Source: Dechloromonas sp. A34
GTDB taxonomy: Bacteria > Pseudomonadota > Gammaproteobacteria > Burkholderiales > Rhodocyclaceae
Length of the DNA stretch: 64,000 nt
NCBI RefSeq assembly: GCF_026261605.1
Contig: NZ_CP102486.1
Span: 2,542,001-2,606,000, forward strand
Direction: 5' to 3'
Under the pieces are notes generated by a model that was given only the letters and a program-made list of their open reading frames with translations, ran no database searches and was not told the origin of the DNA. Below are positions 39,340 to 62,600 of this stretch, in pieces; position 1 is the stretch's first letter; every line of letters starts with the position of its first letter. The translations under genes and the position numbers were made by a program.

Positions 39340-39394
39340 ATCTTAGGACGCGTTTCCCAACAGGAGGCTGACCCGTTCATTACATTTCGGTCAG
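39340..39394 (-). promoter_or_regulatory. Metal-regulon promoter element, copy 4 (minus strand)
   Basis: On the minus strand: CTGAC (degenerate left half), 6 bp, GTAAT, 6 bp, GTCAG, 6 bp, GTTGG (39394 down to 39357), then the -10-like TAAGAT at 39345-39340, 16 bases after the start of GTTGG. All spacings equal those of the three + strand copies. It points at the small repeat-protein gene. Confidence 0.7.
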
Positions 39395-39629: not shown

Positions 39630-39965
<336 letters not shown>

Positions 39966-40355: not shown

Positions 40356-41756
40356 TTAGGTCTGCAGCGGCAAAGACAGGGTAAATTGCGTAACGCCTTC
40401 GGCCGAGTTCACGGTGACGTCGCCGCCATGTGCATTCAATATGGAGCGGGTGATTGCCAGTCCCAAACCTGAACCTTCGGTTGTCCGCTGACGTGAACTG
40501 TCGGCTCGATAAAAACGATCAAACAGGCGTGGGAGATGCTCGGCAGGGATACATGGCCCTGTATTTTCAACGACCAAGTGAACCCTCCCATCGTCGTGCC
40601 GCTCGATCCGGATTGTCACGCGCCCTCCGTCGGGGGTATGGCGAAGCGCGTTCGATAGCAGGTTGCTGATCGCCCGCCGCAGCATCAGACGGTCGCCGGA
40701 AACGGCGCCGCTTCCCGCGGCCGATAGCTGAATTTTCTTTTCCTCGGCCAGCACTGAGTAGAACTCCAACATATCTGCAACCTCGTCGGCCAGTTCGAGA
40801 CGCTCCTGGTTCGGGATAATCTGCTTGTTCTCTGCCTTGGCGAGGAAAAGCATGTCGGCAATCATCCGCGACAGGCGCTCGAACTCCTCCGCGTTGGACG
40901 CCAGAATGTCCCGATATTCGTCGGCCGATCTGGCTCGCGACAGCGTGACCTGGGTTTGGGTCAGCAAGTTGCTGACGGGCGTTCTCAGTTCATGGGCAAG
41001 GTCTGATGAAAAGTCCGACAGGCGCTGAAAGGACTCTTCCAGCCGAGACAGCATGTCGTTCAGGGTGCTCGCCAAGTCGCCCAGTTCAAGGGGAATAGCC
41101 TCAACCGGCAGACGGGTGTGCAGCCGGTTGGCGGTGATCTCGGCAGCCTGACGCTTGATCGTCTGCAGCGGAGCCAGTCCGCGCCGGACGACAAACCAGC
41201 CCAGCAGGCCCATAGCCAGCGTGGCCAGCAGCATGAAGACCCACAAGGTTTGCCGGAAAGCGCCCATGAAATGCTCGTGATGCGATATTTCGGTGGCCAC
41301 CACGACGGTATACGAGGAGCCCGCCTGGCCTCGGGTGGTCAGTGTGGCCGAGATACCTCGCCATGGGAGACCATCGTTGGCGACCCATTTGATAGGGCGT
41401 CCACTACCGGTTGCAAAACGCTCATTAAGTAAGTCAGGGGGCAGATCAAGCCCAACATGGGCATCCAAGCGTTGCCGGTTAGGCCCGACCACGGCTATGA
41501 CCAAACCGTGATGCCCGGTCAAAGCCTCATCCAACTGTTTTGCCAGCGTCTCGCCGCTTGGCGTGGCCAGCGCTTTTTCAAGAACATGCTTGGCCAGTTC
41601 CATTTTGCCGGCCAGCACCTCGATGTCCTGCTCTTCGAAGTGTTGTTCCACCGAGCGCCCGATCAGCAGCCCGAGCAGGAACAGCACGAATACTGACGCC
41701 AATGCAAACCATAAGGTCAGGTGAAGCGTCAGCGATCGACTCCGTATTTGACTCAA
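40356..41756 (-). CDS. cusS: Heavy-metal sensor histidine kinase, CusS/CopS-like
   Basis: 466 residues: membrane helix 13-33, periplasmic sensor domain to about 165, second helix 171-190, HAMP, DHp with phospho-accepting His255 ([13 protein letters not shown]) and a CA domain ([22 protein letters not shown]). The build is that of Cus/Cop/Pco sensor kinases that detect periplasmic Cu(I)/Ag(I). It overlaps the regulator gene (ATGA 41753-41756). Confidence 0.93.
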
Positions 41757-42430
41757 TCGGTAATCTCCAAAACGTAGCCCATGCCCCTGACCGTGCGCAC
41801 CAGCTTTGGTTCGAAGCCTTCATCAATTTTGACCCGCAGGCGTTTGATGGCGACTTCAATGACATTCGTGTCACTATCGAAATTCATGTCCCAAACCTGA
41901 GAGGCGATCAATGAACGGGGCAACACTTCACCCTGGCGGCGCAGCAATAATTCGAGCAAGGCGAACTCCTTGGCGGTCAGGTCGATGCGTTTCCCCGCAC
42001 GGGTCACCCGACGCCGCAGGAGATCAAGTTCCAGGTCGGCCGCCCGCAGAAACTCCGACTCTTTTGCTTTCCCACCCCGCCGCAACAAGGTCCGAACGCG
42101 AGCCAGCAATTCCGAAAAAGCAAACGGTTTGACCAGATAGTCGTCCGCACCCAGTTCCAAGCCTTTGACCCGATCTTCCACCTGATCCCGGGCGGTCAGG
42201 AACAGCACGGGCATCTCCTTGCCGGCCCGCCGGATGCCCTGCAGTACCTGCCAGCCGTCGATGCCCGGCAGCATAACGTCGAGGATGGCCAGATCGTGCG
42301 CCTCGGTCAACGCCAGATGTAAGCCATCCAGTCCGTTAGCCACCAGATCGACCACAAAGCCGGCCTCAACGAGGCCTTGTTTCAGGTATATCCCGGTCTT
42401 TGGTTCATCTTCTACAACCAATATTTTCAT
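41753..42430 (-). CDS. cusR: OmpR-family response regulator, CusR/CopR-like
   Basis: 225 residues from the ATG at 42430 (GGAGAGCGTC upstream). Receiver domain with phospho-acceptor Asp51 ([10 protein letters not shown]) and a winged-helix DNA-binding domain ([21 protein letters not shown], quoted to its first 19; [12 protein letters not shown]). With the adjacent kinase it should control metal resistance. The four promoter elements described here are its most likely targets. Confidence 0.94.
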
Positions 42431-42497
42431 GACGCTCTCCACCAACCGTTGGCTATCGTTGGTGCATTTTCCGTCGGATTCAGCATCGATCACCCTA

Positions 42498-42553
42498 GAT
42501 TACGCAAATGTAATCCGCAAGTCAGCCGATTGTTGGTTTCGCGAACGCATGAT
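42498..42553 (+). promoter_or_regulatory. Metal-regulon promoter element, copy 1
   Basis: GATTAC at 42498-42503, 6 bp, GTAATC at 42510-42515 (perfect inverted half-sites), GTCAG at 42521-42525, GTTGG at 42532-42536, and CATGAT as a -10-like hexamer at 42548-42553. It lies between divergent cusR and the small exported protein and is oriented toward the latter. Confidence 0.8.
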
Positions 42554-42607
42554 GTCCACCATGGGAACGATAGATTCCCGCGACTCCTCTTTCCCCACGG
42601 AGGCAGC

Positions 42608-42889
42608 ATGAAATACAGGGCATTGATCCTGGTCGTCGCCATGAGCTCGGTATGGGCCGATGATGACCACGCAGCGCCAACGGCAATGCCAACTGTCGGC
42701 TACCGTTCGGTGTTTGTCGACTACAAACCCATGCCGGACGAAACGGTTCGGGATTGGCGGCAAGCCAATGACGAGATGGGGCGCTTGCGAGGTCACATGG
42801 GACATCTCAATTCCGAAAATTCCCCACCTTCGAAAGCTGGGCACCATTCGGGAACAGCGCCCGAAGCCGCCCTGCGCGAGAAGAAATAA
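42608..42889 (+). CDS. Small exported His/Met-containing protein
   Basis: 93 residues with a signal peptide (VVAMSSVWA|DDDH) and potential metal ligands: an N-terminal DDDH and later GHMGHLN and GHHSG. No known family is recognised. First gene behind copy 1 of the regulon promoter and 3 bases before the outer-membrane factor gene. Ribosome site GGAGGCAGC. A periplasmic metal-binding helper is a reasonable guess. Confidence 0.72.
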   Translation: MKYRALILVVAMSSVWADDDHAAPTAMPTVGYRSVFVDYKPMPDETVRDWRQANDEMGRLRGHMGHLNSENSPPSKAGHHSGTAPEAALREKK

Positions 42890-42892
42890 GCC

Positions 42893-44331
42893 ATGTCTTC
42901 CCATCCTCCCAAAGGGCTGTACAACTGCGGCAAGCGTAGCCTGTTCGTGATCGCCCTGACGAGCCTCGCCGGCTGTGCCACTTTCTCCAATGACGGCGGC
43001 TTCGCCAGCGTCGAACAGACCACCCGCGAGCGCCTCGGCAAGGAAGTCCAATGGGCGCGCAGCGACGGCGAGCGGGTGACCATGCAGGCCCGCGCCGACG
43101 AACTGCTGGCCCAGCCCCTGACGGTCGACGCCGTAGTCCAGTTGGCGCTGTTCAACAACCGGGGATTGCAGGCCCGCTTTTTCGATCTCGGGATCAGTGA
43201 GGCCGATCTGGTGCAGGTCGGCCGGCTACCCAATCCGCACTTCTCGATGCTGCGCGCCAGTCGGGCGGAAAACGGCAGTCGCGAATACAAAATCGAACAG
43301 GCGCTGACCTTCAATATCTTCGCCTTGATCACCATGCCGCTGGCCGTCGAAGTCGAGCGGCGCAATTTCACACAAACCCAACGTCTGGCGAGCATCGAGG
43401 TGGCCCGTCTGGCCGCCGATACCCGGCAGGCCTATTTCACCGCCGTCGCGGCCGAAGAGTCGGTGCGCTACCTGCGCAAAGTCAAACAGGCGGCGGAGGC
43501 CGGGGCCGAACTGGCCCGCCGGATGGCGCGGGTGGGCAACTTCAGCAAGTTGCGCCAGGCTCGGGAACAGGCGTTTTACGCCGATGCGGCCCTGAATCTG
43601 GCACGGGCAGAGCAGGTGGCTACTTCGTCGCGGGAGCGCCTGGCCAGAGTTCTTGGCCTGGCGGACCGAACGTCCTTCCAACTCCCCGAGCGTTTGCCGG
43701 ACTTGCCGACGGCCGTCAATGAACTCCCCGTCCTGGAACAGGCGGCCCTCGACCAGCGCCTCGACCTGCAAGCCATACGTCTCGAAACCGAAGCCCTGGC
43801 CAGCAACCTGGGATTGAGCAAGGCGACCCGCTTGATCAACGTTCTGGAGGTGGGGCCGGCCGCGTGCTGGAAGGCGCCCGCAACAGCGGCTACAAGAAAG
43901 GTTATGAAATCAGCTTCGAACTGCCGATCTTCGACTGGGGCGGCGCCAAGGTGGCCAAGGCCGACGCCATCTATATGCAGGCGATCGAGCGGGCGGCTGA
44001 AGCGGCGACGAATGCGCGCTCGGAGGTTCGCGAAAGTTATCACGCCTATCGGACCCACTACGATATTGCCCGCCATTATCGCGACGAGATCGTGCCGCTC
44101 CACAAGCGGATTTCCGAAGAAAACGTGCTGCGCTACAACGGCATGCTGATTGGCGTGTTCGAACTGCTCGCCGACGCGCGAACGCAGATCGCGACGGTTA
44201 ACAGCTATATCGAGACGCTACGGGATTTCTGGATTGCCGAGGGCGATCTGCAGATGTCGATGATCGGCAAACCCGCTTTGAATATGGCCGGCCGCGCCAC
44301 CGTCACGGCGACAGGTCGGGCCGATCACTGA
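42893..44331 (+). pseudogene. CusC/TolC-family outer-membrane factor, frame broken once
   Basis: A lipoprotein OMF (lipobox LAGC, Cys28). The first frame runs through two TolC repeats to 43852; the rest (RVLEGARNSGYKKGYEISF...) continues in another frame to 44331. Adding one G to GGGG at 43852-43855 joins them as LEVGAGRVLEGA. A full protein would have about 479 residues. No RND partner is adjacent: a multicopper oxidase follows. Confidence 0.9.
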
Positions 44332-44348
44332 GCGCAAAGGATTCGACC

Positions 44349-45758
44349 ATGACTTCTCGTCGCGAATTTTTCAAGAACCTGGGGATGGCTGGTGGCGCCG
44401 TAGTCGCCGCTTCGGTCAGTTCCGTCGCCATGGCGGCGCTGCCCGAACTGGTGACGATGGACAAACCGGATACCATGCCGCCGCTCCAACCGCCCAACGG
44501 GCGCCCTTACCATCCGGTGGCGACCCTCAATGGCTGGACCTTGCCGTGGCGGATGAACAAGGGCGTCAAGGAATTCCATCTCGTCGCCGAACCGGTTGTC
44601 CGCGAAATCGCCCCGGGCATGAACGCCCATTTGTGGGGCTACAACGGACAAAGCCCTGGTCCGACGATCGAAGTGGTCGAAGGCGACCGCGTGCGTATCT
44701 TCGTGACCAATCGGCTGCCGGAACACACGACCATCCACTGGCATGGCCAGCGCTTGCCGAACGGAATGGATGGGGTCGGCGGCCTGACCCAGAAGCAGAT
44801 TCCCAGCGGCAAGACTTTTGTCTATGAGTTCGTCGCCCGCCGCCCCGGCACCTTCATGTATCACCCGCATGCCGACGAGATGACGCAGATGGCGATGGGC
44901 ATGATGGGTTTCTGGGTAACCCACCCGAAGAGCAAGCATCCGCTGATCGAGGAAGTCGACCGCGACTTCTGTTTCCTGCTGAACGCCTATGACATCGACC
45001 CGGGCAGCTATACGCCGCAGGTTAATACGATGCTCGAATTCAATCTGTGGACCTGGAACAGCCGGGCATTCCCCGGCATCGATTCGCTGAATGTCCGCAA
45101 GGGGGACAAAGTTCGCATCCGCATGGGCAACCTGACAATGACCAATCACCCGATGCATTTGCACGGGCACGAGTTTGTCGTCAGTGGCACCGATGGCGGC
45201 CCGACGCCAATCGCTTCCCGCTGGCCGGAGGTGACGGCCGATGTCGCAGTCGGCCAGATGCGTCAGCTCGAGTTCCGCGCCGATGAGGAAGGCGATTGGG
45301 CCTTCCATTGCCACAAGAGCCATCACACGATGAACGCCATGGGACACGACGTGCCAACGATGATTGGCGTCGATCACCGGGGTGTGGTCAAACAGATCAC
45401 CGACCTGATTCCCGACTATATGGTGATGGGCGAACGCGGCATGGCGGACATGGGGGAGATGGAAATGCCGATTCCCGACAACACGCTCCCCATGATGACC
45501 GGCCAAGGGCCCTATGGTGCGATCGAAATGGGCGGCATGTTTAGCGTGGTCAAAGTGCGCCGCGATCAGAAGCCGGGAGACTACCGGGACCCCGGCTGGT
45601 ACACGCAGCCCGCCGGCAGTCAGGCCTACGAATGGACGGGGCCCGTCGCCGAGGCCCAGCGATCGACAAGTCAGGGCGGCGTGTCGATGCCCGCGAACGG
45701 GAAGCCGGTGAATCAGGAACTGACCGTGCGCAAACCCGGCAAACATGCCGGCCACTAA
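44349..45758 (+). CDS. Tat-exported multicopper oxidase
   Basis: 469 residues. Twin-arginine signal (SRREFFKNLG). Copper ligands: HWHG (130-132), HPH (172-174), HPMHLHGHEF (267-274) and HCHKSHH (320-326), i.e. the type 2/3 and type 1 sites. A Met-rich stretch near residue 370 (MVMGERGMADMGEMEM) may bind Cu(I). Such enzymes oxidise toxic Cu(I) to Cu(II) in the periplasm. The arrangement differs from CopA/CueO in length, so the subfamily is open. Confidence 0.93.
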   Translation: MTSRREFFKNLGMAGGAVVAASVSSVAMAALPELVTMDKPDTMPPLQPPNGRPYHPVATLNGWTLPWRMNKGVKEFHLVAEPVVREIAPGMNAHLWGYNGQSPGPTIEVVEGDRVRIFVTNRLPEHTTIHWHGQRLPNGMDGVGGLTQKQIPSGKTFVYEFVARRPGTFMYHPHADEMTQMAMGMMGFWVTHPKSKHPLIEEVDRDFCFLLNAYDIDPGSYTPQVNTMLEFNLWTWNSRAFPGIDSLNVRKGDKVRIRMGNLTMTNHPMHLHGHEFVVSGTDGGPTPIASRWPEVTADVAVGQMRQLEFRADEEGDWAFHCHKSHHTMNAMGHDVPTMIGVDHRGVVKQITDLIPDYMVMGERGMADMGEMEMPIPDNTLPMMTGQGPYGAIEMGGMFSVVKVRRDQKPGDYRDPGWYTQPAGSQAYEWTGPVAEAQRSTSQGGVSMPANGKPVNQELTVRKPGKHAGH

Positions 45759-45785
45759 GCTGAATTTACTTGAAGAGGTGCCCCC

Positions 45786-46286
45786 ATGCGCAATCGTTGT
45801 GATCTTGCTCTGCTCGTTATGCTGGCCATGCCCGGTTTTGCCGCCTACGGCGATGAAAACCACACCGCGCCGACCAAACAAGCGGCGGGCAAGGCATCCA
45901 GTCAACATGCCGCCGACCTCGGCAGACCGGCTTCGATCAGCGCGGCCACCCGGACGGTCGAAGTGGCCATGGACGACGGCATGCGTTTCAAGCCTGAGCG
46001 TATCGAAGCCAGACGAGGAGAAACGATTCGCTTTGTCGTGCGTAACCAGGGGCAAGTCAAACACGAATTCGTGCTGGGTACGCTGGCGGAATTAAAGAAA
46101 CACGCCGCACTAATGGCGAAGTTCCCGCAGATGGAGCATGACGACCCGAATGCGGTGTCGGTAGAGCCGGGAAAGACCGCGGAATTCGCCTGGACGTTCG
46201 TGAAATCGGGGAGTTTCGATTTTGCCTGCCTCGTTCCGGGACATTTCGAAGCGGGGATGAAAGGCAAAATCATTGTGCACCGGTAG
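45786..46286 (+). CDS. Periplasmic cupredoxin-like protein
   Basis: 166 residues: signal peptide, a His-containing linker, then a plastocyanin/azurin-like fold with a complete type 1 copper set (His93 in KHEF, Cys148, His153, Met158 in ACLVPGHFEAGM). It may carry copper or electrons for the multicopper oxidase encoded 27 bases upstream. Ribosome site GAAGAGGTG. Confidence 0.9.
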   Translation: MRNRCDLALLVMLAMPGFAAYGDENHTAPTKQAAGKASSQHAADLGRPASISAATRTVEVAMDDGMRFKPERIEARRGETIRFVVRNQGQVKHEFVLGTLAELKKHAALMAKFPQMEHDDPNAVSVEPGKTAEFAWTFVKSGSFDFACLVPGHFEAGMKGKIIVHR

Positions 46287-46293
46287 GTCGCAA

Positions 46294-46349
46294 GATTACA
46301 TAAATGTAATTTATCGGTCAGCCTCCCGTTGGGCAACGCTCAGTACCAT
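46294..46349 (+). promoter_or_regulatory. Metal-regulon promoter element, copy 2
   Basis: GATTAC 46294-46299, 6 bp, GTAATT 46306-46311, GTCAG 46317-46321, GTTGG 46328-46332 and TACCAT 46344-46349 as a -10-like hexamer. Begins 8 bases after the cupredoxin stop and 93 bases before the next ATG, so it starts a second transcript. Confidence 0.8.
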
Positions 46350-46386
46350 CTGGGCCATCGAATCCAGATCTGGTGAATTTGCCCCA

Positions 46387-47610
46387 ATGAATTGCGCTCC
46401 GCCAACGCCCAGAATGCGTGCCGGGACCGGCTTCCTGCTGGTCTTGCTGGCCGCCCCTATCGGTTCCGCTCAGGCCGAAACCCTGCGCGATGTGTTTGAA
46501 AAAGCGTGGGCCAATTCCCCGCAGGGGAAAACGATAGTCGCGAAACAGGAAGAAGCGACCGCCAGCCGAACCGTTGCCGAATCCTTGTTTCCTGGTACAC
46601 CGAAAATCGGCTTGGCGCAGCGCACTGACCGCTGGAACGACAATCTCGGCAAGGAAGAGAGCGAAATCGGAATTTCCGTTCCGCTCTGGCTGCCCGGTCA
46701 GAAAGCAGCCCGGATCGCCGTTGCCGAGGCCGATGGCGACGAGAGTCAGCGGAGCATTGCCGCCACCCGGCTAGCGGTCGCCGGTGAATTGCGGACAGCC
46801 CTGTGGTCGCTCTCCTTGGCGCAAAGTGAAGCGGTGGTGGCCGTTGAACGTCTCGAGGCCGCGGCCAAACTGGAAGCCGATGTGGCCAGGCGGGTCAAGG
46901 TCGGTGAAATAGCCCGTTCCGATCTACTCCTCGTCAAGCAGGAAACGAGCAGCGCCCGGGCTGCTGCGGCCGAAGCAAAAGCACGCGTGGTACGCAGTAC
47001 GCAGCGCTATCGGGTGGTGACCGGCAGCGACAAGTTGCCAGACAATCCACAAGAGCCGGTCATGGCTGCCGCCATTGACGATATCCATCCCCGTCTTGCG
47101 GCCGGACAGGCCATTGCCGAGCGCGCCCGTGCCGGCATGAAACTGGCCCAAGAGTCGCGCCGCGATGCGCCCAGCATCGGCGTGCAATATCGCCGGGAGC
47201 GCGATGCTTCCGGCGCCATCCCACGCGACAGCGTTGGCTTCGCCATCACCATCCCCTTCGCTGGCGAGGTCCGCAACGCGCCCTTGATTGCCAGCGCCAA
47301 CACGGCACTGATCCAGGCCGATGCCCAGTATCAGCGGCTTGCCGCCGAAATCGAAGCCGAAGTCATGGAGGCCGAGGCGCAACTCGATTCGGCCCGCATC
47401 GGCGCAGGCTTGGCGGAAGAGCGCGAACTGGCCGCGGCGGAACGCCTGATGCTGATGCGCCGCGCCTTCGAACTGGGGGAAACGGCGCTCGTCGAATTGC
47501 TGCGTGCCCAGACCCAGGCGATCGAGGCCCGCATCGACCTGGGTCGCAGCCGCGCCCGCCTGTCGGCCGCCCAGGCCAATCTGAATCAAGCCCGAGGAAT
47601 TACACCGTGA
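46387..47610 (+). CDS. TolC-family outer-membrane factor (CzcC/CusC-like)
   Basis: 407 residues from the ATG at 46387 with a signal peptide (APIGSAQA|ETLRDVFEKA). Two outer-membrane-efflux repeats with long coiled coils (AVVAVERLEAAAKLEADVAR). It is the outer channel of the RND pump that follows. Its stop overlaps the next start (GTGA 47607-47610). Confidence 0.9.
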   Translation: MNCAPPTPRMRAGTGFLLVLLAAPIGSAQAETLRDVFEKAWANSPQGKTIVAKQEEATASRTVAESLFPGTPKIGLAQRTDRWNDNLGKEESEIGISVPLWLPGQKAARIAVAEADGDESQRSIAATRLAVAGELRTALWSLSLAQSEAVVAVERLEAAAKLEADVARRVKVGEIARSDLLLVKQETSSARAAAAEAKARVVRSTQRYRVVTGSDKLPDNPQEPVMAAAIDDIHPRLAAGQAIAERARAGMKLAQESRRDAPSIGVQYRRERDASGAIPRDSVGFAITIPFAGEVRNAPLIASANTALIQADAQYQRLAAEIEAEVMEAEAQLDSARIGAGLAEERELAAAERLMLMRRAFELGETALVELLRAQTQAIEARIDLGRSRARLSAAQANLNQARGITP

Positions 47611-48173
47611 TCGACATGCCTTTCATCCAGAGTTGGGCTGCCCCAAAAGCCTTTATTACAGCCATCCTGCTTGCGCTGTCCATGCCGCTCCTCGCCCATG
47701 AAGGCCATGACCATGAAGCCGCCACCAAACCAGCCGATGTTCGGTTGGCGCCTCGTTTCGAGCTGCGTAGCGAAGACTTTGAACTCGTCGGCGTGCTCGC
47801 CGGCAAGGAGCTGATCGTCTATCTCGACCGCGCCGCCGACAACGCACCGGTTCCCGGAGCGCAAATCGAAATCGAAGGACAGGGGATCAACGGGGTAGCC
47901 ACCGAGATGGCCAACGGCATCTACCAATTATCCGTTCCCCCTCTGACGCCGGCCGGCAAATACCCGCTGACCCTCACTATTCAGGCGGGCGAAATTGTCG
48001 ATCTGCTTTCGGCCAATCTGGAGATTGGCCACGTAGCGGCTGCCGTGACTGACGCCGGACACCCTGATCGCAACTGGTGGTTCTACGCCGGCACACCGCT
48101 GTTGCTGCTGGCCGGCGGCCTGATCGTGCGCCGCCTGCGTCGCCAACCGCAACCTGGGATTCATTCAGCATGA
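47607..48173 (+). CDS. Exported, membrane-anchored protein of the RND operon
   Basis: 188 residues: signal peptide, HEGHDHE metal-ligand-like stretch right after it, an Ig-like beta domain (FELVGVLAGKELIVYLDRAA...LTPAGKYPLTLTIQ) and a C-terminal membrane helix (WWFYAGTPLLLLAGGLIVRRL). Function unknown, but it is translationally coupled on both sides and may present metal to the pump. Confidence 0.75.
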   Translation: MIDMPFIQSWAAPKAFITAILLALSMPLLAHEGHDHEAATKPADVRLAPRFELRSEDFELVGVLAGKELIVYLDRAADNAPVPGAQIEIEGQGINGVATEMANGIYQLSVPPLTPAGKYPLTLTIQAGEIVDLLSANLEIGHVAAAVTDAGHPDRNWWFYAGTPLLLLAGGLIVRRLRRQPQPGIHSA

Positions 48174-49348
48174 CCGATATCCATAACCTTACGCGCTTCG
48201 CCCTGGCTCTGCTCGTGGGCAGTACCCTGGCTGTTCAGGTCTCCGCCCATGGCGGCGAGGACCATGGCGACAACCAGAAACCTCCTGCCGCACCGGCCCC
48301 GGTCGCCGCCGTCAATGCCCAAGGTCAGGTGACGTTTAACGAGCCGGCCTTGCGCCTGCCGGACGGCAGCGTCTTTGTCCCGAAATCGGCGCAGCGGCAG
48401 TTGAGCTTGCGCACCCGGGCCGCCGTCAAGGGAGAATTCCCCCGCACCGTCGAACTCAATGGCCGCATCGTTGCCGACCCCAATGCCGGCGGGCGGGTGC
48501 AGACTTTCCAGAGCGGACGGATCGAGGCCGGCCCGAACGGGCTGGCGGTACTCGGTCAACAGGTGAAGAAGGGCCAGATCCTGGCCTGGCTGCAGCCCGC
48601 CGCAACCGCCCTCGAACGCGGCGCGCAGCAATCGGCGCTGGTTGAACTGGCCGCCCAGGAAAGCGTTTTCGAACGCCGCCTGGCGCGTCTTAAACAACTG
48701 GAAGGCAGCGTCCCGCAGAAAGACATCGAGCAGGCGGAAATCGAGCTCGCCGCGTTCAAGAAACGCAAAAGCGCTGTCGGCGGCAGCCTCGGCCGCGAGG
48801 CCCTGGTCGCCCCGGTGACCGGCGTGGTCAGTGCGGCCAATGCCGCCGTCGGTCAGGTGGTCGAGGCGCGGGAAGTAGTCTTCGAGGTCATCGATCCGCA
48901 GCGGCTGGCGGTCGAGGCATTGGCCTATGATCCCCTGCTGCTCGATGGACTGAGCAAGGCCAGCGCGCCGATTGCCGGCGGCGTGCTCGACCTCGCCTTT
49001 GTCGGCCTGGGGCGCAGCTTGAAGGACCAGGCCATGCCGGTGCTGTTCCGCGTCGAAGCGCCGAAAAATGGCGCGGGCGAACTCCCCGCCGTGGCCGTCG
49101 GCCAGACCCTCAAGGTCATCGCCCAGACCCGGGCCAGGCAAGCCGGCGTGGCGATTCCCGCCGCCGCTGTGGTGCGCAACGCGGCCAATGAATCGGTGGT
49201 CTGGGTGCACGAAAGCGCCGAGCGCTTCGTCGCCCGCAAAGTCAAGACCGCGGCGCTGGACGGCCATACGGTGGCCGTCACCGACGGCCTGAGCGGCGGC
49301 GAGCGCGTCGTCATCCAGGGCGCCGCTGCCCTGGCGCAGATCCGCTAA
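48170..49348 (+). CDS. RND membrane-fusion protein (CzcB/CusB-like)
   Basis: 392 residues from the ATG at 48170 (ATGA overlap). After the signal peptide comes HGGEDHGD, then barrel-sandwich, alpha-hairpin (LERGAQQSALVELAAQESVF) and beta-barrel domains. It links the RND pump with the outer channel. No N-terminal heavy-metal-binding motif of the CusB type is present, unlike the second MFP in the window. Confidence 0.9.
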   Translation: MTDIHNLTRFALALLVGSTLAVQVSAHGGEDHGDNQKPPAAPAPVAAVNAQGQVTFNEPALRLPDGSVFVPKSAQRQLSLRTRAAVKGEFPRTVELNGRIVADPNAGGRVQTFQSGRIEAGPNGLAVLGQQVKKGQILAWLQPAATALERGAQQSALVELAAQESVFERRLARLKQLEGSVPQKDIEQAEIELAAFKKRKSAVGGSLGREALVAPVTGVVSAANAAVGQVVEAREVVFEVIDPQRLAVEALAYDPLLLDGLSKASAPIAGGVLDLAFVGLGRSLKDQAMPVLFRVEAPKNGAGELPAVAVGQTLKVIAQTRARQAGVAIPAAAVVRNAANESVVWVHESAERFVARKVKTAALDGHTVAVTDGLSGGERVVIQGAAALAQIR

Positions 49349-49357
49349 GGGGGCCGC

Positions 49358-52300
49358 GTGTTCGATTTCGTCATCAATGCGAGTCTCAAGCAGCGCCTGA
49401 TCGTGCTCGGTGTTTCACTGTTGCTGGTCATTTACGGGGCGCTGACCGTGCGCAACATGCCGGTGGACGTTTTCCCCGACCTCAACAAGCCCATGGTCAC
49501 GCTGATGACTGAAGCCGGCGGCATGGCGCCGGAAGAGGTCGAGCAATTGATCACGTTCCCCGTCGAATCGGCGATGAACGGCATGCCGGGCGTGACGCGG
49601 GTGCGCTCGGTGTCGGGCATCGGCCTGTCGGTGGTCTATGTCGAGTTCGAGTGGGGCAGCGAAGTCTACCGCAACCGCCAGCAGATCGCCGAGCGGCTCA
49701 ACCTGGTCCGCGAACAGTTGCCGCAGGGAATCGTGCCCCAGATGGGTCCGATTTCGTCGATCATGGGCGAAATCCTGCTCATCGCTTTGCCGGCCGATCC
49801 GGAAAAAGCCAGTCCGATGCAGGTGCGCGAATACGCCGACTGGGTCATGCGGCCGCGGCTGTTGACCATCCCCGGCGTCGCTCAGGTCATCCCGATCGGC
49901 GGCCAGGTCAAGCAGTACCGCGTCGAACCCGACCCGGCCCGCTTGCAGGCAGTCGGCGTCACGCTGGCCGAGTTGGAAGCGGCGCTGAAGAACTTCGGTG
50001 GCAACACGGCCGGCGGCTTCGTCGATGCCGCCGGTCGCGAATACCTGATCCGCAACATCGGCCGGACGACCCGGCTGGTCGATCTGCAGAACCAGCCGGT
50101 GGCGACACGCAATGGCCAGCCCATCCTGCTGCGCCAGGTGGCTGCCGTCACCTTCGCCGCCGGCGTCAAACGCGGCGACGCCAGTTTCAAGGGCAAACCC
50201 GCCGTCATTCTGTCGGTGCAGAAGCAGCCGACGGCCGATTCGGTGGCATTGACGCGGGCCGTCGAACAGGCCTTGGCCGAGATGGGCAAGAGCTTGCCGC
50301 AGGGTGTCGACACGCCGCAGTTCCTGTTCAAGCAGGCCAATTTCATCGAGGCCTCGGTCAATAACGTCGAAGAGGCGCTACGCGACGGCGCGATCATGGT
50401 CGCCGTCATCCTCTTCTTGTTCCTGGCCAATTTCCGCACCACCTTCATTTCGCTGACTGCCATTCCGGTCTCCCTGCTGGTCACGGCGCTGGTCTTCAGC
50501 TATTTCGGTCTGTCGATCAACACAATGACGCTGGGTGGCCTGGCCATCGCCATCGGTGAGCTGGTCGATGATGCCGTGGTCGACGTGGAGAACGTGTTGC
50601 GCCGCCTGCGCGAAAACCGGACCTTGCCCAACCCCCGGTCGGCGCTGGAAGTGATTGCCGCCGCCTCGAAGGAAGTCCGCTCCGGGGTCGTCTATGCGAC
50701 GCTGATCGTCGTGCTGGTGTTCATTCCGCTGTTCGCCCTGCCGGGAATCGAGGGCCGGCTGTTCACGCCGCTCGGCGTAGCCTACATCGTGTCCATCCTG
50801 GCCAGCATGGCGGTGGCGATGACCATCACCCCGGTGCTGTGCTACTACCTGTTGCCGAAGATGAAGCACATCGATCATGGCGACAGCGCGCTGGTCAAGA
50901 AACTCAAGGCCTGGGACGAACGCCTGCTCAACTGGTCGTTTGACCGTGCTCGCCCACTGCTGATCGGCGCCGTTGTCATCGTGGTCGTCGCGCTGGCCTC
51001 GATCCCCTTTTTCGCGAAATCTTTTTTGCCACCATTTAACGAAGGCACGCTGACCGTCAATGTCGTCCTCAACCCTGGCTCATCGCTGGCCGAATCGAAC
51101 CAGATCGGTACGCAGGCGGAAAACATCCTGCTCGCCGTGCCGGAAGTGACCGAGGTCGGCCGCCGCACCGGTCGCGCCGAACTGGACGAGCATGCCGAAG
51201 GCGTCCATTACAGCGAGATCGAGGTCGATCTGAAGGCTTCCGAGCGCGACCGGGAGGCGATCATCGCCGACATCCGCCAGCGCCTGGCCGTCCTGCCCGC
51301 CGTGGTCAACGTCGGGCAACCGATTTCGCACCGCCTCGACCATTTGCTGTCCGGCGTCCGGGCGCAGATCGCGCTGAAGATTTTCGGCGACGATCTGGAC
51401 ACCCTGCGCGGCCTGGCCGGCGACATCAAGGAACGCCTGGCCAAGATTCCCGGCATCACCGACTTGCAGATCGAAAAGCAGGTGCTGATTCCCCAGTACA
51501 AGATCCATCTCGATTACGACGCCGCCGCCCGCTACGGCGTGGCTTCCGGCGAAGTGCTGCAACGCCTGGAACAATTGCTGGCCGGCGAGCGGATCGGCCA
51601 GGTCATCGAAGGCAATCGCCGCTTCGACCTGACCCTGCGCTTGTCGGAAGAAGCCCGCGGCGAGCGCGGCCTGGAAAATCTGCTGATCGAGACCTCGACC
51701 GGCCGCGTGCCGCTGTCGCTACTCGCCCGTATCGAGGATGGCGAGGGGCCGAACCAGATCGGCCGCGAAAACACCCGGCGCCGCATCGTCGTCTCGGCCA
51801 ACACCGACGGTTCCGACATGAGCCGGATCATTGCCGACATCCGCGCCGAAATCGACAAGAAACCCATGCCGGCAGGCTATTTCCCGCTGCTCGAAGGGCA
51901 GTTCCAGGCGCAGGAACAGGCGGCCAAGCTGATCGCGCTGCTCGCTGTCGTTTCGTTGACGATGATTTACCTGGTGCTCTACAGCCGCTACCGTTCGGCG
52001 GTACTGACCGCCATCATCATGGGCAACGTGCCGCTTGCCCTGGTCGGCTCGGTCGTCGCGCTGTGGATTTCCGGCCAACCGCTGTCGGTCGCCGCTCTGG
52101 TCGGCTTCATCACGCTGACCGGCATCGCCACCCGCAACGGTATTCTGAAAATCAGCCATTACATCAACCTGTGCGCTTTCGAGGGCGAAGTGTTCGGCCG
52201 CAAGATGATCGTCCGCGGCTCGCTGGAACGCCTGACCCCGGTATTGATGACGGCGCTGGTCGCCGCCTTCGCGCTGACCCCGCTGCTCCTTTCCGCCGAC

Positions 52301-52462
52301 GCGCCGGGCAAGGAAATCCTGCATCCGGTCGCCGTCGTGATTTTCGGCGGCCTGATCAGTTCCACCTTGCTCGATACCTTGCTGACCCCGGTCATGTTCT
52401 GGCTGTTCGGCGAGAAGCCCCTGCAACGCCTGCTCGCCGAAAAGGCGCAAGAGTCTTTCTAA
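49358..52462 (+). CDS. Heavy-metal RND efflux pump (CzcA/CusA family)
   Basis: 1034 residues, twelve membrane helices expected. The fourth helix reads [14 protein letters not shown] near residue 400, not the Cu/Ag-type IDAAIVMIEN. This suggests a different HME subclass whose substrate cannot be named from sequence. GTG start after AAGGGGG. The inner-membrane motor of the tripartite pump. Confidence 0.93.
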
Positions 52463-52485
52463 CTCCACACGATGAGGAAATATCC

Positions 52486-52941
52486 GTGAAACTCCCCCTG
52501 ATTCCCAACCTGGTTTTATCTGCTGCATTGATCTTCGCCGGCAACGGTGCTTTCGCCCACGACGATGCCACGCTCGACAAAATGAAGGCCCCGAATGGCG
52601 GCCAGCTCCGCATGGCCGGGCCTTATCACTTCGAATTGCTGGTCGACAAAAACAATAAGGAAGCAAAAGACAGTCCGGTCACCGTCTATCTCACCGACCA
52701 CGGGGCGCAGAAGATCCCGGCAGCCGGTGCAAGCGGCACGGCAACGATTCTGGCTGGCAAAGCGAAAGTGACGGTGCCGCTGTCGCCAGCCGGCGACAAC
52801 AAACTGACCGGTGTCGGCAAGTATGTCTCCGATGCCCATATGAAGGTGGTTGTTTCTGTCGTGTTCCCCGACAAAAAGACCGAGCAGGCGCGATTTGCAC
52901 CGTTGGCGGCAGGCCATGCCGACGACCATATGCACCATTGA
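52486..52941 (+). CDS. Exported protein of the RND operon, unknown
   Basis: 151 residues from GTG at 52486 (AGGAAA upstream). Signal peptide (GNGAFA|HDDAT), then a beta-rich domain (GPYHFELLVDKNNKE...VTVYLTDHGAQKIPAAGAS) and an end with HADDHMHH metal ligands. It resembles small periplasmic proteins found beside metal RND pumps. A binding or metering role in the periplasm is inferred. Confidence 0.75.
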   Translation: MKLPLIPNLVLSAALIFAGNGAFAHDDATLDKMKAPNGGQLRMAGPYHFELLVDKNNKEAKDSPVTVYLTDHGAQKIPAAGASGTATILAGKAKVTVPLSPAGDNKLTGVGKYVSDAHMKVVVSVVFPDKKTEQARFAPLAAGHADDHMHH

Positions 52942-52996
52942 TCAACCCAGGGGCGCCTCAGAAAGCCGGAAAATAAAGCACGCTAAGCGCGGTTTG

Positions 52997-53324
52997 TTAT
53001 CCGCAATATCCGCGCTGCTGCTGGATTGGCTGGCACTTCACCGAGCCAAACGAGCAGAACACGCAACAGTCACCCGGACTGGGGCGCAGCAGCGCGTGGC
53101 AGTTGCTGCACTCATAGTAAAACTGGCACGCGGGTGGGCAGGGTTTCGTGTTTGGCGAAGCCCTGCATTCGTAGTCGCCTGAATCAGCGCCTCCGGCTGG
53201 GTCTTGTCCAAGGCGAAGGTAACGATGGCCGTTTTCTTGTCGAAATCGCGGCTGATCCCTATTGTTCGTCGCCTCTGTAGCCTCCAACGTTGACGCTGTC
53301 AATGGGAATGGTTATCATTTGCAT
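52997..53324 (-). pseudogene. Broken HMA/GDCCVFC-type metal-binding protein
   Basis: Pieces of one protein lie in three frames: a start MQMITIPID at 53324, then ISRDFDKKTAIVTFALDKTQ plus PEALIQATTNAG (end of an HMA-like ferredoxin fold), then YYECSNCHALLRPSPGDCCV followed by FCSFGSVKCQPIQQQ. The last break is repaired by one extra G in GGG (C on + at 53163-53165). The second break is not a simple one-base loss. The CXXC of the HMA part is missing, so the protein is not functional as given. Confidence 0.7.
53304..53322 (+). promoter_or_regulatory. Fur-box-like site before the TonB receptor
   Basis: GGGAATGGTTATCATTTGC on the + strand; its complement matches 14 of 19 positions of the Fur consensus, including 12 of 13 in the AATGATAATCATT core. 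It lies 107 bases before the receptor start. It also overlaps the first codons of the broken metal-binding gene, so part of the match may be coincidence. Confidence 0.5.
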
Positions 53325-53429
53325 GGTTTTACGTTTCCGGCGAAACGTTACGCTCGTTTAATCCATCCCCAGCCAGCCAGCCGCAACCCTAGCGTCAAGC
53401 CAGCCAAATAACTGACGCAAGGAGTTTCA

Positions 53430-55529
53430 ATGAACTGGCAGCCCCCCAGAAGACACGACAGCAAGAAATTCGGCAAGACCAAGTTGGCCTTGGCCATGGC
53501 CCTCGTGATGAATATCCCGGCCCAGCTTGTCGCCGCCGAAGTCGAACTGCCCGGCATCGACGTGGTCGGCAAAGGCGAGCAGGCGATCGCCAAGCTGCCC
53601 GGGGCAGTCGCCGTCATCAGCAAGGAAGATCTGGCGCTCCGCCAGCCGCTGTCGGTCCAGGATGCCCTCAAGGCGGTGCCGGGCATCGTGGTGCGGGAAG
53701 AGGAAGGTTACGGTTTCATTCCCAACATCGGCATGCGCGGCCTGGATCCCAACCGCAGCCAGAAACTGCTGGTGCTGGAAGACGGCGTGCCAGTCGCCCC
53801 CGGCCTGTTCCTGGCCAATGAATCCTATTACAGCCCGCGCATCGAGCGCATGGAGAGCATCGAAGTGCTCAAGGGGGCCGCCGGCCTTCGCTACGGCCCG
53901 ACCACGATCGGCGGCGTGATCAACTACAAGACCAAGAAGCCGGAGGATGGCGTCAAGGTGACCGCCAAGGCGGGCTCCCATGGTTACTGGCTGCTCGGCC
54001 TGGATGCCGGCGGCGCCGCACCTTCAGGCGAGGCGATCGGCGGCATCAGCCTGGTCACCTCACAGGGTGACGGCTTCCGCCGCAACGCCTTCGACATGAA
54101 CGACATCGTCGTCAAGGGCGGCATGGCGATCGGCGACAAGCAATGGGTTAGTCTCAAGTTCTCGCATTACGACAACGACATCAATACTTCCTATGTCGGC
54201 CTGCGGCCCAACGAATACCGCAACAATCCGACCAAGAATCCGGCGCCCGACGATTATTTCCTGAACCAGCGCAACGCGTTCGATTTCAATCATGAAATCG
54301 AGATAAACGAAGACGTCAAGCTTAAGACCCTCGTCTACTGGGCCCAACTAGACCGCGACTACTGGCGGCGCGACATCGCCGCGCGCAGCGCCGACGGCAC
54401 GACGTTTGTCGCGTGCACGGGTGTCGCCTATTGCATGTCCGGTCGCAACCGCTCGTTCGAGATGGCCGGCATCGACAGCCGGCTGTTTGTCAATTTCAAC
54501 GGCTTCGGCATCAAGAACGAGGCGGAGATCGGTATCCGTCTGCACAGCGACTTCCTGAGCAACCAGACCGTCCGCTCGAAAACCAATCCCAACGCCCGTT
54601 CCGGGGAACTGACCGGCGACGACTCGCAGGATGCCAAAGGCATTGCTTTCTACGGCCAGAACCGCTTCGTTATCAGCGAAACGCTGGCCACCACCGTCGG
54701 CTTGCGCATCGAATCGTATGACCAGAAGCGCAAGGACGAACTGAACGGCGTTTCCGGCAAGTCCAGCAATACCGAAGTGATGCCCGGGCTCGGGCTAACC
54801 TGGCAACTGATGCCGCAGGCGCAACTGTTCGCCGGGGTTTACAAGGGCTTCTCGCCGGCCATGGTGGCGACGGCGATCAGCGCCGGTGGCGTCGATCAGG
54901 AACTCGATGCAGAACGCTCGACCAATTTCGAAATCGGCGTGCGCGGCACGGCAAATCGCTGGAGCTACGAAGCGACCGCCTTCCGGATGGACTTTGCCAA
55001 CCAGATTGTGCCCCAATCCGAATCCGGAGGCGTCGGAGCCACCGTCACCAATGCCGGCGAAACCCTGCACCAGGGTCTCGAAGGCGCGCTCGGTTTCGAC
55101 ATCGGCGGTGGCTGGAGCGTGGCCGCCAACGCAACCTATGTGCCGACGGCGAAGTACAACAGCACCAAGGTTGTCGGCGGCATCGACCGCAACGGTAACC
55201 GTCTGCCGTATGCGCCCGAGCTGACCGGGAACCTGGCGCTGAACTACCAGGCCGGACCGCTGAAGACCGGCGTCAGCGCCTACCACGTGTCCAGCCAGTA
55301 CGTCGATCCGGAGAACACCGAGGCTGAAAGCAGTGATGGCCGGCGCGGCAAAATCCCGGCCTACACGACCGTCAACCTGAACGCCCAGTACAGTCTGAGC
55401 AAAAAGTGGAATGTGTTCGGCACGGTGCGCAATCTGTTCGACCGGAAATACATTGCCAGTCGCAACCCGGATGGGATCTTCCCCGGAGTGGAGCGCAATT
55501 TCGAAGTCGGTATGAGCTACAAGTTCTGA
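53430..55529 (+). CDS. TonB-dependent outer-membrane receptor (FecA-like)
   Basis: 699 residues. An extended signal region, then a TonB-box-like ELPGIDVVG, plug domain (SVQDALKAVPGIVVREEEG, RYGPTTIGGVINY) and a beta-barrel ending in the aromatic FEVGMSYKF. Plug features resemble FecA-type receptors for ferric chelates. No transporter for the imported ligand is nearby, so the substrate is unknown; a metal-chelate is likely. Good ribosome site (AAGGAGTTTCA). Confidence 0.92.
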   Translation: MNWQPPRRHDSKKFGKTKLALAMALVMNIPAQLVAAEVELPGIDVVGKGEQAIAKLPGAVAVISKEDLALRQPLSVQDALKAVPGIVVREEEGYGFIPNIGMRGLDPNRSQKLLVLEDGVPVAPGLFLANESYYSPRIERMESIEVLKGAAGLRYGPTTIGGVINYKTKKPEDGVKVTAKAGSHGYWLLGLDAGGAAPSGEAIGGISLVTSQGDGFRRNAFDMNDIVVKGGMAIGDKQWVSLKFSHYDNDINTSYVGLRPNEYRNNPTKNPAPDDYFLNQRNAFDFNHEIEINEDVKLKTLVYWAQLDRDYWRRDIAARSADGTTFVACTGVAYCMSGRNRSFEMAGIDSRLFVNFNGFGIKNEAEIGIRLHSDFLSNQTVRSKTNPNARSGELTGDDSQDAKGIAFYGQNRFVISETLATTVGLRIESYDQKRKDELNGVSGKSSNTEVMPGLGLTWQLMPQAQLFAGVYKGFSPAMVATAISAGGVDQELDAERSTNFEIGVRGTANRWSYEATAFRMDFANQIVPQSESGGVGATVTNAGETLHQGLEGALGFDIGGGWSVAANATYVPTAKYNSTKVVGGIDRNGNRLPYAPELTGNLALNYQAGPLKTGVSAYHVSSQYVDPENTEAESSDGRRGKIPAYTTVNLNAQYSLSKKWNVFGTVRNLFDRKYIASRNPDGIFPGVERNFEVGMSYKF

Positions 55530-55881
55530 GACCGAAGGCTCTCTCAGCCCGTGGTGAGTCGCTCCAACCTGAAGACCGGAGCGACTTACCGCCGGTGGTG
55601 CTGACCCCGGTGCGCTTTCACTGAGCCGCCTGCCGAGTGGCCAGAAAGGGAATGCTACGGTCGACCGGGAAAAATGGTCGAAAATGAAAAAATGGCGCGA
55701 ATTGAATTCACGCCTTTTTTTTCGACATCCGGTGGCAAGCGAATCTCGGCATCGAATTAATTCCGGGTTGATCAAACCGGGGTTGCTGTTAAAAATTACC
55801 GAAATGTAATCTTATGGTCAGTGTTTTGTTGGTCTTGCATGGCCATACTGCCCTCAATCAATTGAACGAGGAGTGATTTCC
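55530..55881. other. 352-base gap with the third regulon promoter
   Basis: No gene. After the receptor stop there is GAAGGCTCTCTCAGC... without a clear terminator; the region around 55680-55800 is AT-rich. The promoter element at 55794-55849 and the AGGAG ribosome site of the next gene are the only clear signals. Confidence 0.5.
55794..55849 (+). promoter_or_regulatory. Metal-regulon promoter element, copy 3
   Basis: AATTAC 55794-55799, 6 bp, GTAATC 55806-55811, GTCAG 55817-55821, GTTGG 55828-55832 and CATACT 55844-55849 as a -10-like hexamer. It drives the DUF411-CusF-CusCBA transcript starting 33 bases later. Confidence 0.8.
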
Positions 55882-59698: not shown

Positions 59699-62600
59699 AT
59701 GTTGGCCAACATTATCGAATGGTCGGGCCGGAACCGCTTCCTGGTTCTGCTCGCCACCCTGTTCATCACCATCGGCGGCATTTATGCCGTGTTGCGCACC
59801 CCGATCGATGCCTTGCCCGACCTCTCGGATGTCCAAGTCATCGTCTATACCGAGTATCCGGGGCAGGCGCCGCAGGTGGTCGAGGATCAGGTCACCTATC
59901 CGCTGACCACAGCCATGCTGTCGGTGCCGAAATCCAAGGTGGTGCGCGGCTTCTCGTTCTTCGGCGCCTCCTTCGTGTACATCATTTTCGAGGACGGTAC
60001 TGACATCTACTGGGCTCGCTCGCGTGTGCTGGAATACCTGAATTTTGCGTCCAGCCGCATGCCCAAGGGCGTCACCCCCTCGCTCGGACCGGATGCCACC
60101 GGCGTTGGCTGGGTCTACCAGTACGCGCTGCTCGCCAAGGACAAGACTCTGGCCGAACTGCGCACCATCCAGGACTGGTACGTCCGCTATCAGTTGACCA
60201 AGGCGCACGGCGTCGCCGAAGTCGCCTCGATCGGCGGCTTCGTGCAGACCTACCAAGTAACCGTCGACCCGGTGAAACTGCGTTCCTACGGCATTCCGCT
60301 GATGAAGGTGGCGCAGGTGATCCGCGACTCGAACCGCGATGTCGGCGGCCGTGTCGTCGAGATGGCTGAAACCGAGTACATGGTGCGCGGCAAGGGTTAC
60401 CTGCGCGGTAAGAGCGACCTCGAAACTCTGGTCGTCAAGAGCGAGCAGGGCACGCCGGTGCTGATCCGCGACATCGCCCGCGTCGAACTGGCGCCGGACG
60501 AACGGCGCGGCCTGACCGAACTCAACGGCGAGGGCGAAGTGGTCTCGGGCATCGCCATGGCGCGCTATGGTGCCAACGCGCTGGAGGTCATCCACAACCT
60601 GAAAGCCAAGATCGACGAAATCGGCGGCGGCTTGCCGGCCGGCGTCACGGTGCAAACGGTGTATGACCGTTCCGAACTGATCCATCGCGCCATCGATACG
60701 CTCAAGCGCACCTTGCTGGAAGAAGCGGTCATCGTCGCGCTGGTCTGCATCGTGTTCCTGATGCACGTGCGCAGCGCCTTGGTCGCCATCCTGATGCTGC
60801 CGGTCGGCGTGCTGATCGCTTTCATCGCCATGCGCTCGCTGGGCATGAACTCCAATCTGATGAGCCTGGGCGGCATCGCCATCGCCATCGGTGCGATGAT
60901 CGACGCCGCCATCGTCATGATCGAGAACGCCCACAAACACCTGGAGCGCCTGCCCGAGGAGCACACCAAAGCTGAGCGTGCCGACGCCATGCTCGCCGCC
61001 TGCAAGGAAGTCGGCCCGGCGCTGTTCTTCTCGCTGCTCATCATCACTGTTTCCTTCCTCCCAGTGTTTGCCCTGGAAGGCCAGGAGGGCCGGCTGTTCT
61101 CGCCGCTGGCCTTCACCAAGACCTTCTCGATGGCCGGCGCGGCGCTACTTTCGGTGACCCTGGTACCGGTCCTGATGATGCTGTTCATCCGCGGCAAGGT
61201 CATGCCGGAATCGAAGAATCCGGTGAATCGTTTTCTGATCTGGGCCTACCGGCCGATCATCGCCGGCGTCATGCGCTGGAAAAAGCTGACCATCGTGCTC
61301 GCCGTGCTGGCGCTGGGGGTCTCGGTCTACCCGGCATCGCAACTGGGTTCCGAGTTCATGCCGACGCTCAACGAGGGCACGCTGCTCTACATGCCGGCTT
61401 CGCTGCCCGGCATGTCGATCACCAAGGCCGCCGAGCTTATGCAGACCCAGAACAAGATCATCAAGAGCTTCCCCGAGGTCGCTTCGGTTTATGGCAAGGC
61501 CGGGCGCGCCAACACGGCGACCGATCCTGCGCCGACCGAGATGTTCGAGACGGTGATCAACCTGAAGCCGGAATCCGAATGGCGCGCCGGCTTGACCACC
61601 GACAAGCTGATCGCCGAACTCGACAAGGCGCTGCAATTCCCCGGCGTCGCCAATGCGTGGACGATGCCGATCAAGGCGCGCATCGACATGCTGTCTACCG
61701 GCATTCGCACGCCGATCGGCATCAAGGTCTTCGGCAAGGATCTGGGCGAGATGGAAAAAGTGGCCAAGGAAATCGAGGCCGTGGTCAAAGCTGTCCCCGG
61801 CACGACCAGTGCCTTCGCCGAGCGCATCACTGGCGGCTTTTATCTCAATATCGAACCGGACCGCGAGCAACTGGCCCGCTACGGCCTGGCCGTCGGCGAC
61901 TTGCAGGATGTGATCGGCACAGCGCTGGGCGGTGAGATGGTGACGACCACGGTCGAGGGGCGGGAACGTTTCGGTGTCACCATCCGCTATCCGCGCGAAC
62001 TGCGTTCCGATCCGCAGCAGATCGCCCGCGAGGTGCTGATCCCGACCATGGATGGGGCGATGATTCCGCTCGGCCAATTAGCCAAGGTCGTCGTCGCCAA
62101 AGGCGCGCCCAGCATCCGCACCGAAAACGCCTTGCTCTCTGCCTACATCTATGTCGACATCCGCGACCGCGACATCGGCAGCTACGTCGCTGACGCCAAG
62201 AAAGCGGTTGCCGAACAGGTCAAATTCCCGCCGGGTTACTACGTGACCTGGAGCGGCCAGTTCGAATACATGGAGCGGGCCATCGAGAAGATGAAAATCG
62301 TCATCCCGGTCACGTTGCTCTCGATCTTCCTGCTGCTCTATCTCAACTTCAAGCGCATTACCGAGACGCTGATCGTCATGCTTTCGGTTCCTTTCGCGCT
62401 GGTTGGCGGCATCTGGTTGATGTGGTGGCTCGGCTATAACCTGTCGGTCGCCGTGGCGGTTGGCTTCATCGCCTTGGCCGGGGTGGCGGCCGAAACCGGT
62501 GTCATCATGCTGATCTATCTCGATCATGCCTGGGAGGAACTGAAGGCCAAGCGGCGTGCCGAGGGCCAGGTGCCAAGCCTGACCGATCTTTACGAAGCGA

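Follow-up and report, generated by a model that had tools for sequence, protein, structure and literature searches.

What are GTCAG and GTTGG, the two short conserved blocks that follow a CopR/CusR-type box in front of copper and silver resistance genes of Dechloromonas sp. A34? The question arises from a stretch of 64,000 nucleotides of this genome (contig NZ_CP102486.1, positions 2,542,001 to 2,606,000; hereafter the window), in which the inverted repeat ATTAC-N6-GTAAT (blocks 1 and 2) is followed at fixed distances by GTCAG (block 3), GTTGG (block 4) and a hexamer resembling a -10 element. Judged from the sequence, GTCAG and GTTGG are best read as a third and a fourth CusR/CopR half-site, standing head to tail in a row and in place of a -35 hexamer. 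What is seen is the sequence of the blocks, their spacing, their recurrence, the lack of a -35 and the likeness of blocks 3 and 4 to half-sites.

The pattern RATTAC-N6-GTAAT-N6-GTCAG-N6-GTTGG occurs three times in the window, at 42498, 46294 and 55794 and always on the plus strand (sites 1 to 3), just where an earlier sequence-only reading had placed it, and never in 100 dinucleotide shuffles. Without the leading R it gives three forward matches and no reverse match in the whole 4.76-Mb genome, and a reversed-pattern control gives none. When up to three mismatches are allowed, the genome holds six matches and the control again none. Two of the three extra matches keep GTAAT, GTCAG and GTTGG intact and are altered in block 1 alone, which is CTGAC at window position 39394 and ATGAC at genome position 2630545 (both on the minus strand); the third, at genome position 3439330 (minus strand), has GTCGA as block 4. 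The three noted sites are thus joined by a fourth on the minus strand of the window (site 4) and by others beyond it. A genome scan with degenerate blocks and the -10 found seven perfect sites, one with a single mismatch and four with three mismatches, against one control match with up to three mismatches. All seven perfect sites lie within 2,581,340-2,630,545, the 49-kb copper region that contains cusRS, and two of them have GTCAT and GACAG as blocks 3 and 4. A looser scan, with block 4 reduced to G...G, block 1 omitted and three mismatches allowed, did not discriminate (41 matches versus 34 in the control). Random occurrence elsewhere in the genome, which the sequence-only reading had named as a ground for refuting the element, was not seen in these scans, and a chance origin is ruled out by the shuffles, the reversed-pattern controls and the genome-wide scans.

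At each of sites 1 to 3 a -10-like hexamer begins exactly 16 bases after the start of GTTGG, as had been claimed (Table 1); two of the three, CATGAT and CATACT, start with C and not T. Such likeness could be a matter of descent and not of function, if the three sites were recent copies of one promoter, and two sites, at window position 39340 and genome position 2630491, are indeed alike beyond the blocks when judged by eye. At sites 1 to 3, however, the spacer sequences diverge while the blocks and the -10 spacing persist, and in 77 non-redundant sites from related loci the columns between block 4 and the -10 hold only 0.01-0.31 bit. Recent copying as the sole cause is ruled out by these divergent spacers and this low information, and likeness by descent alone is hardly credible.

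The 77 sites come from a survey of 80 loci encoding CusR relatives, the best 80 of 575; the closest CusR proteins among them belong to Dechloromonas, Accumulibacter and Methyloversatilis, with 95-96% identity. A box was defined by an exact match to ATTAC, ATGAC or CTGAC as block 1, N6 and GTAAT, and the sequence downstream was not used in selection. There were 92 such sites in 65 loci, or 85 after removal of near-copies by identity; 77 of them (55 loci) have block 3 within one mismatch, and 76 remain after the loss of one at a contig end. Palindromic sites were oriented on block 3, without reference to block 4 or the -10, and the gap scan accepted half-site words in both orientations at each gap. 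At gap 6, 58 of the 85 boxes are followed by an exact half-site word (GTCAG, GTAAT or GTCAT), and 77 by one with at most one mismatch. The corresponding numbers at gap 17, where GTTGG stands, are five and 42; at the remaining gaps from 0 to 35, a word with at most one mismatch follows 0 to 12 boxes. Block 4 has a consensus close to G-T/A-C-G/A-G; its first base is G in 73 of the 77 sites, and its commonest words are GTTGG (13), GACAG (9) and GTCGG (8). The -10, as A....T, lies exactly 16 bases from the start of block 4 in 69 of the 77, and the next best distance accounts for nine. Because the columns between them carry so little information, the blocks and the -10 stand out from a nearly saturated background. 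Co-variation of the second bases of blocks 3 and 4 (counts 5, 4, 15 and 53; Fisher p 0.046, uncorrected for kinship) is not used as evidence. Among 369 genomes of the class, blocks 1-3 are exact in eight besides Dechloromonas sp. A34; block 4 is GACAG in five of these and GCTGG, GAAAG or GTAAG in the others, and the -10, from rows read by eye, lies at +16 in five of the eight and at +15 in two, with none fitting in one.

The identity of the two downstream blocks was approached with a position model of the half-site, eight bases long (GTAATCTT) and trained on blocks 1 and 2 only, which was slid along 76 of the 77 sites. On the same strand, its top scores outside the inverted repeat fall at +11 (z 8.3) and +22 (z 4.5); elsewhere z is 0.4 at +33, 0.8 at +44, 0.3 at -11 and 0.2 at -22. 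GTCAG is also the reverse complement of CTGAC, the block 1 word in 25 of the 77 sites. By these scores and this match, both downstream blocks resemble the regulator half-site and appear to be copies of it, with block 4 the poor copy. The sequence-only reading had proposed a single composite element with CopR/CusR-type half-sites, with GTCAG and GTTGG as a second regulator contact; recurrence, spacing and half-site likeness support both proposals as probably correct, the likeliest of those considered. It had also offered a different view of the same blocks, as a fixed, weak -35 region. One or other would then be the -35 of a sigma-70 promoter that has the box upstream of it, and both do lie between box and -10 at a fixed spacing. 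But the -35 position, 17 base pairs (bp) from the -10, falls between GTCAG and GTTGG and has the consensus G-C-T-T-x-C, not TTGACA, and block 3 is a half-site word, found in complement as block 1. Wrong in place and in consensus, the -35 is rejected, and any probability left to it is very slight.

The E. coli phoA promoter, GTCAT-N6-GTCAC-N10-TATAGT, offers a parallel; we take its words to be the PhoB target site. PhoB activates transcription through contact with sigma. Like the module in Dechloromonas, phoA has two half-site-like words in direct orientation at an interval of 11 bp; the second starts 15 bases before the -10, one base closer than in the module. Unlike it, phoA has no visible head-to-head pair upstream. 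Compared with a PhoB-type site, the module agrees in the 11-bp period and the lack of a -35 and departs in the -10 spacing, which is 11 bp as against 10 in phoA.

We consider it probable that the element is the output promoter of the adjacent CusR/CopR-class regulator, with four half-sites 11 bp apart and a tandem dimer in place of the -35; the cusR/copR-type regulator encoded beside site 1 is the likely activator of these sites. Activated CusR would bind the four half-sites at their 11-bp spacing, with the head-to-head pair ATTAC/GTAAT, the known box, as the anchor. The direct copies GTCAG and GTTGG would then bring the regulator down to about -24 to -26, where a tandem dimer at blocks 3 and 4 would hold sigma region 4 instead of a -35, on promoters that have a -10 only. 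This last step is suggested by the position of the last two copies within one base of the phoA register. The scheme supposes that CusR binds all four blocks and presumably needs phosphorylation to do so, and that the regulator would touch both block 4 and sigma. The sites have what is expected of CopR/CusR-class operators, namely the inverted repeat ATKAC-N6-GTMAT or CTGAC-N6-GTAAT, a TIGR01387-family regulator nearby (above the curated cut-off) and, at sites 1 to 3, copper/silver resistance genes downstream. They also have the extra in-phase half-site, in the same direction and downstream of the inverted repeat, that is a trait of AgrR-type operators.

Published operators contain parts of this layout. 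Two sequences cited in PMC11195947, the P. aeruginosa CopR consensus CTGACAn5GTAAT and the CusR palindrome AAAATGACAAnnTTGTCATTTT of E. coli, share the layout of blocks 1 and 2 but include neither the two downstream blocks nor the -10 spacing. AgrR of Cupriavidus metallidurans uses an inverted repeat with in-phase direct repeats at some operators, and a GT change in the promoter-proximal repeat largely affected activation; its promoters have a -10 and no -35 or a poor one, and AgrR acts unphosphorylated (PMC7380067). The AgrR proximal repeat would correspond to block 3. AgrR differs from the module in the position of its core, which is centred at -43.5 where AgrR controls its own promoter and 'slightly more upstream' elsewhere, and a fourth block and a fixed spacing are absent from the accessible text of that paper. 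In C. metallidurans CH34, a 37-bp MEME motif lies about 50 bp upstream of the listed cop starts, copG, copK and copO excepted (PMC7563307). Its length is close to the 38 bp found here and the two are presumably one element, although it is given as a logo, and the accessible text has no half-site dissection and no link to the -10. In P. putida KT2440, extended protection by CopR1/CopR2 was explained by several TGACA-like half-sites, as here, but with no common register across four promoters (PMC12428095). The suggestion that GTCAG and GTTGG have no place at all in published descriptions is therefore not supported: GTCAG is the reverse complement of the CopR half-site CTGAC as printed (PMC11195947), and the AgrR proximal direct repeat (PMC7380067) and the 37-bp cop motif (PMC7563307) are both in print. 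No description of the fourth block as a conserved half-site, or of a fixed -10 spacing, was found in the accessible texts, a search that did not cover figures or the older CopR, PcoR and CusR papers.

Block 4 is where a more modest alternative applies, in which blocks 1-3 alone are regulator sites and block 4 is kept by a preference of RNA polymerase (through sigma or the alpha C-terminal domain) or of DNA bending for such a sequence in the interval from the -35 position to the -10. Of the four blocks, block 4 varies most and seldom matches a half-site exactly, and in the enterobacterial promoters described below it starts with A. The AgrR footprints (-74 to -40, -65 to -35 and -63 to -32) end at -40 to -32 (PMC7380067). 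Against this, block 4 is the next-best half-site copy outside the training region and lies at exactly +22 bp, and phoA has a similar word within one base of its position. At P. putida copA1, moreover, the footprint is printed as -89 to -43 from the start codon with transcription starting 20 bp upstream of that codon, which by arithmetic puts CopR protection at about -69 to -23 (PMC12428095). Retention of block 4 by polymerase or bending alone is judged rather unlikely.

Several observations weigh against four regulator half-sites and a fixed -10. The enterobacterial A and the AgrR footprints just given are among them, and one AgrR target is bound at -122.5 (PMC7380067). Of the P. putida promoters, copA1 alone agrees: the same calculation ends the protection of copR2 near -35, and at copR1 and copA2 the bound region lies over 90 bp upstream. 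The authors of that study recognized no typical -10/-35 and propose sigma factors or mechanisms yet to be identified (PMC12428095). Two more peaks of the half-site model, at -5 (z 3.9) and -16 (z 2.8), fall where it overlaps the region it was trained on, with the A/T-rich spacer. As a half-site, block 4 is poor: an exact half-site word stands there in five of 85 boxes, and the 77 sites show 29 different words, with GTTGG in 13 sites. Only 25 of the 77 have the full TAnnnT at the -10, the usual first base being C (41 sites). Fifteen of the 80 loci have no exact box, and eight of the 85 boxes have no block 3. The C. metallidurans pMOL30 copA1 promoter, a weaker version of the module, speaks for the scheme in one respect: its start, printed as 191,243 (PMC7563307), is 9 nucleotides past the predicted -10, provided that the paper numbers the plasmid as in NC_007971.2, and blocks 1-4 then lie at -63, -52, -41 and -30. 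The start base there is C, and eight bases separate it from the -10, two points that count against it. In six of ten Pseudomonas loci, blocks 1-4 run from -93/-71 to -56/-34 relative to a start codon chosen by rule; these loci are only loosely comparable with P. putida copA1, because the gene that follows has about 175 codons and is too short for copA.

Reference promoters extend the pattern and also set its limits. The E. coli K-12 cusC promoter reads ATGAC-N6-GTCAT-N6-GTCAC-N6-ATCAG-N11-TAAAGT, and three promoters of a Citrobacter sil/pco plasmid share this layout, their block 4 being AACAG, giving a common form [AG]TGAC-GTCAT-GTCAC-A[AT]CAG-N11-TA[AT]A[AGC]T. Because these four were selected with the same 58-column model, they extend the pattern and provide no independent count of the register, a further reservation. 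Weaker fits are seen for cop of P. syringae pPT14-32 (score 25.8) and copA2 of C. metallidurans (32.1), compared with a training median of 49.4 and a background, the best of five shuffled windows, of 8.0. A misfit is the pcoA promoter of the same Citrobacter plasmid (L149 8441-8674), which has ATTAC-N6-GTAAT only and a best score of 6.8; block 3, block 4 and a -10 were not found in register there. The layout is therefore not universal in the class. As pcoA keeps the inverted repeat alone and three other promoters of its cluster hold four blocks, two promoter types may coexist in one sil/pco cluster.

The same operator seems to serve the regulator gene as well. Of the 77 sites, 44 are within 250 bp upstream of a regulator gene, and 40 of these 44 face away from it. 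Read backwards, 25 of 66 minus-oriented sites have a -10-like A....T 32 bases past the start of the last half-site, the next best register having eight. This is six bases closer than on the structural-gene side, and column counts of the 40 nearest sites show no extra half-sites on the regulator side. The operator would thus work in a second register, with a nearer -10 and without direct repeats; in the AgrR promoter the core is likewise reported to be closer to the start (PMC7380067).

The finding is a real promoter module of a known kind and gives a more exact picture of a known switch, not a new one. What it appears to add, on sequence evidence, is that the two downstream blocks are half-sites, that the -10 stands in a fixed register, that the layout occurs at enterobacterial cus/sil promoters (not pcoA) and that a second register faces the regulator gene. 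A wider proposal is that the CusR/CopR/SilR class, in bacteria ranging from enterobacteria to Rhodocyclaceae, has this single 55-bp module as its main output promoter: a head-to-head pair, two head-to-tail half-sites and, exactly 11 bp further on, a -10, without a -35. The same operator would be read backwards in the second register. We advance this tentatively and with somewhat less than even confidence, as pcoA does not fit. If true, one operator would combine binding to a dyad with tandem binding of the PhoB kind, and a single site would use two regulator arrangements to activate the structural genes on one side and the regulator, with its nearer -10 and no extra half-sites, on the other. 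The fixed rule would find copper and silver promoters from sequence with few false hits (in 4.76 Mb, eight sites have no more than one mismatch, and the control has a single site with up to three). It would offer a simple sigma-70 reading for P. putida promoters for which a role of unidentified sigma factors was thought possible (PMC12428095). Within a copper island, the strength of each promoter could depend on its blocks 3 and 4, and the unequal expression of cop genes with similar motifs (PMC7563307) would become testable.

Table 1. Promoter elements and principal genes in the window
Feature	Position	Strand	Basis or remark
Site 1 half-sites	ATTAC 42499-42503, GTAAT 42510-42514, GTCAG 42521-42525, GTTGG 42532-42536	+	pattern scan
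Site 1 -10-like hexamer CATGAT	42548..42553	+	16 bases past GTTGG start
Predicted regulator-ward -10-like hexamer GAAAAT, towards cusRS	42466..42471	-	site 1 operator, 32 bases past start of last half-site
Site 2 half-sites	ATTAC 46295-46299, GTAAT 46306-46310, GTCAG 46317-46321, GTTGG 46328-46332	+	pattern scan
Site 2 -10-like hexamer TACCAT	46344..46349	+	16 bases past GTTGG start
Site 3 half-sites	ATTAC 55795-55799, GTAAT 55806-55810, GTCAG 55817-55821, GTTGG 55828-55832	+	pattern scan
Site 3 -10-like hexamer CATACT	55844..55849	+	16 bases past GTTGG start
Site 4 CTGAC-N6-GTAAT-N6-GTCAG-N6-GTTGG-N11-TAAGAT	39394-39340	-	genome scans
cusS/copS-type sensor kinase	40356..41756	-	TIGR01386 513 bits, above cut-off
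cusR/copR-type response regulator, 225 amino acids	41753..42430	-	TIGR01387 351 bits, above cut-off (scanned as open reading frame 41753-42493)
Multicopper oxidase-like protein, partial CopA family match	44349..45758	+	below curated cut-off
CusA/CzcA-family RND pump, downstream of site 2	49358..52462	+	TIGR00914 above cut-off
CusA/CzcA-family RND pump, downstream of site 3	59699..62833	+	TIGR00914 above cut-off

The three plus-strand sites were said to precede separate resistance transcripts, and the gene order agrees, with a separate predicted set of metal genes downstream of each. Site 1 lies in the gap between the start of cusR and the next operon, which encodes a small protein, an outer-membrane efflux protein, the multicopper oxidase-like protein and a CopI-like protein; the oxidase and CopI matches are below curated cut-offs and the small protein has no family match. 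Site 2 precedes genes for a TolC-like protein, an adaptor and the RND efflux pump. Downstream of site 3 are genes for a DUF411 protein and then CusF-, CusC-, CusB- and CusA-like proteins, of which only the DUF411 protein and the pump are above curated cut-offs. The gene at site 4 (39029-39274) encodes a small protein of 81 amino acids without a family match. Sites beyond the window precede genes for a CzcE-family protein followed by CopK, for a DUF2933 protein upstream of a P-type ATPase, and for an unmatched small protein.

Two weaker copies of the module, each with three mismatches, are found in the same copper region (locus L130, 1019-1073 on the plus strand and 4974-5028 on the minus strand; scores 15.6 and 15.4). 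The one-mismatch copy lies 0.8 Mb off the island (genome 3439276-3439330, minus strand; L006/L140), ahead of a gene for a CusF-type protein, and for that reason this copper gene outside the island may come under the same regulation. Near cusRS, an open reading frame at 39702-39965 (plus strand) matches the CusA/CzcA-type RND pump model over no more than its final 74 positions and is a broken remnant. The CusB-like adaptor at 58043-59674 (plus strand) matches CusF over its C-terminal residues 447-510, below the curated cut-off, and is possibly a fused metal chaperone. Also near the copper genes, the minus strand at 36421-37634 encodes a lytic transglycosylase resembling IagB/TrbN/VirB1 and an OmpA-type lipoprotein, both below curated cut-offs; that this region belongs to an integrated conjugative element would be a guess.

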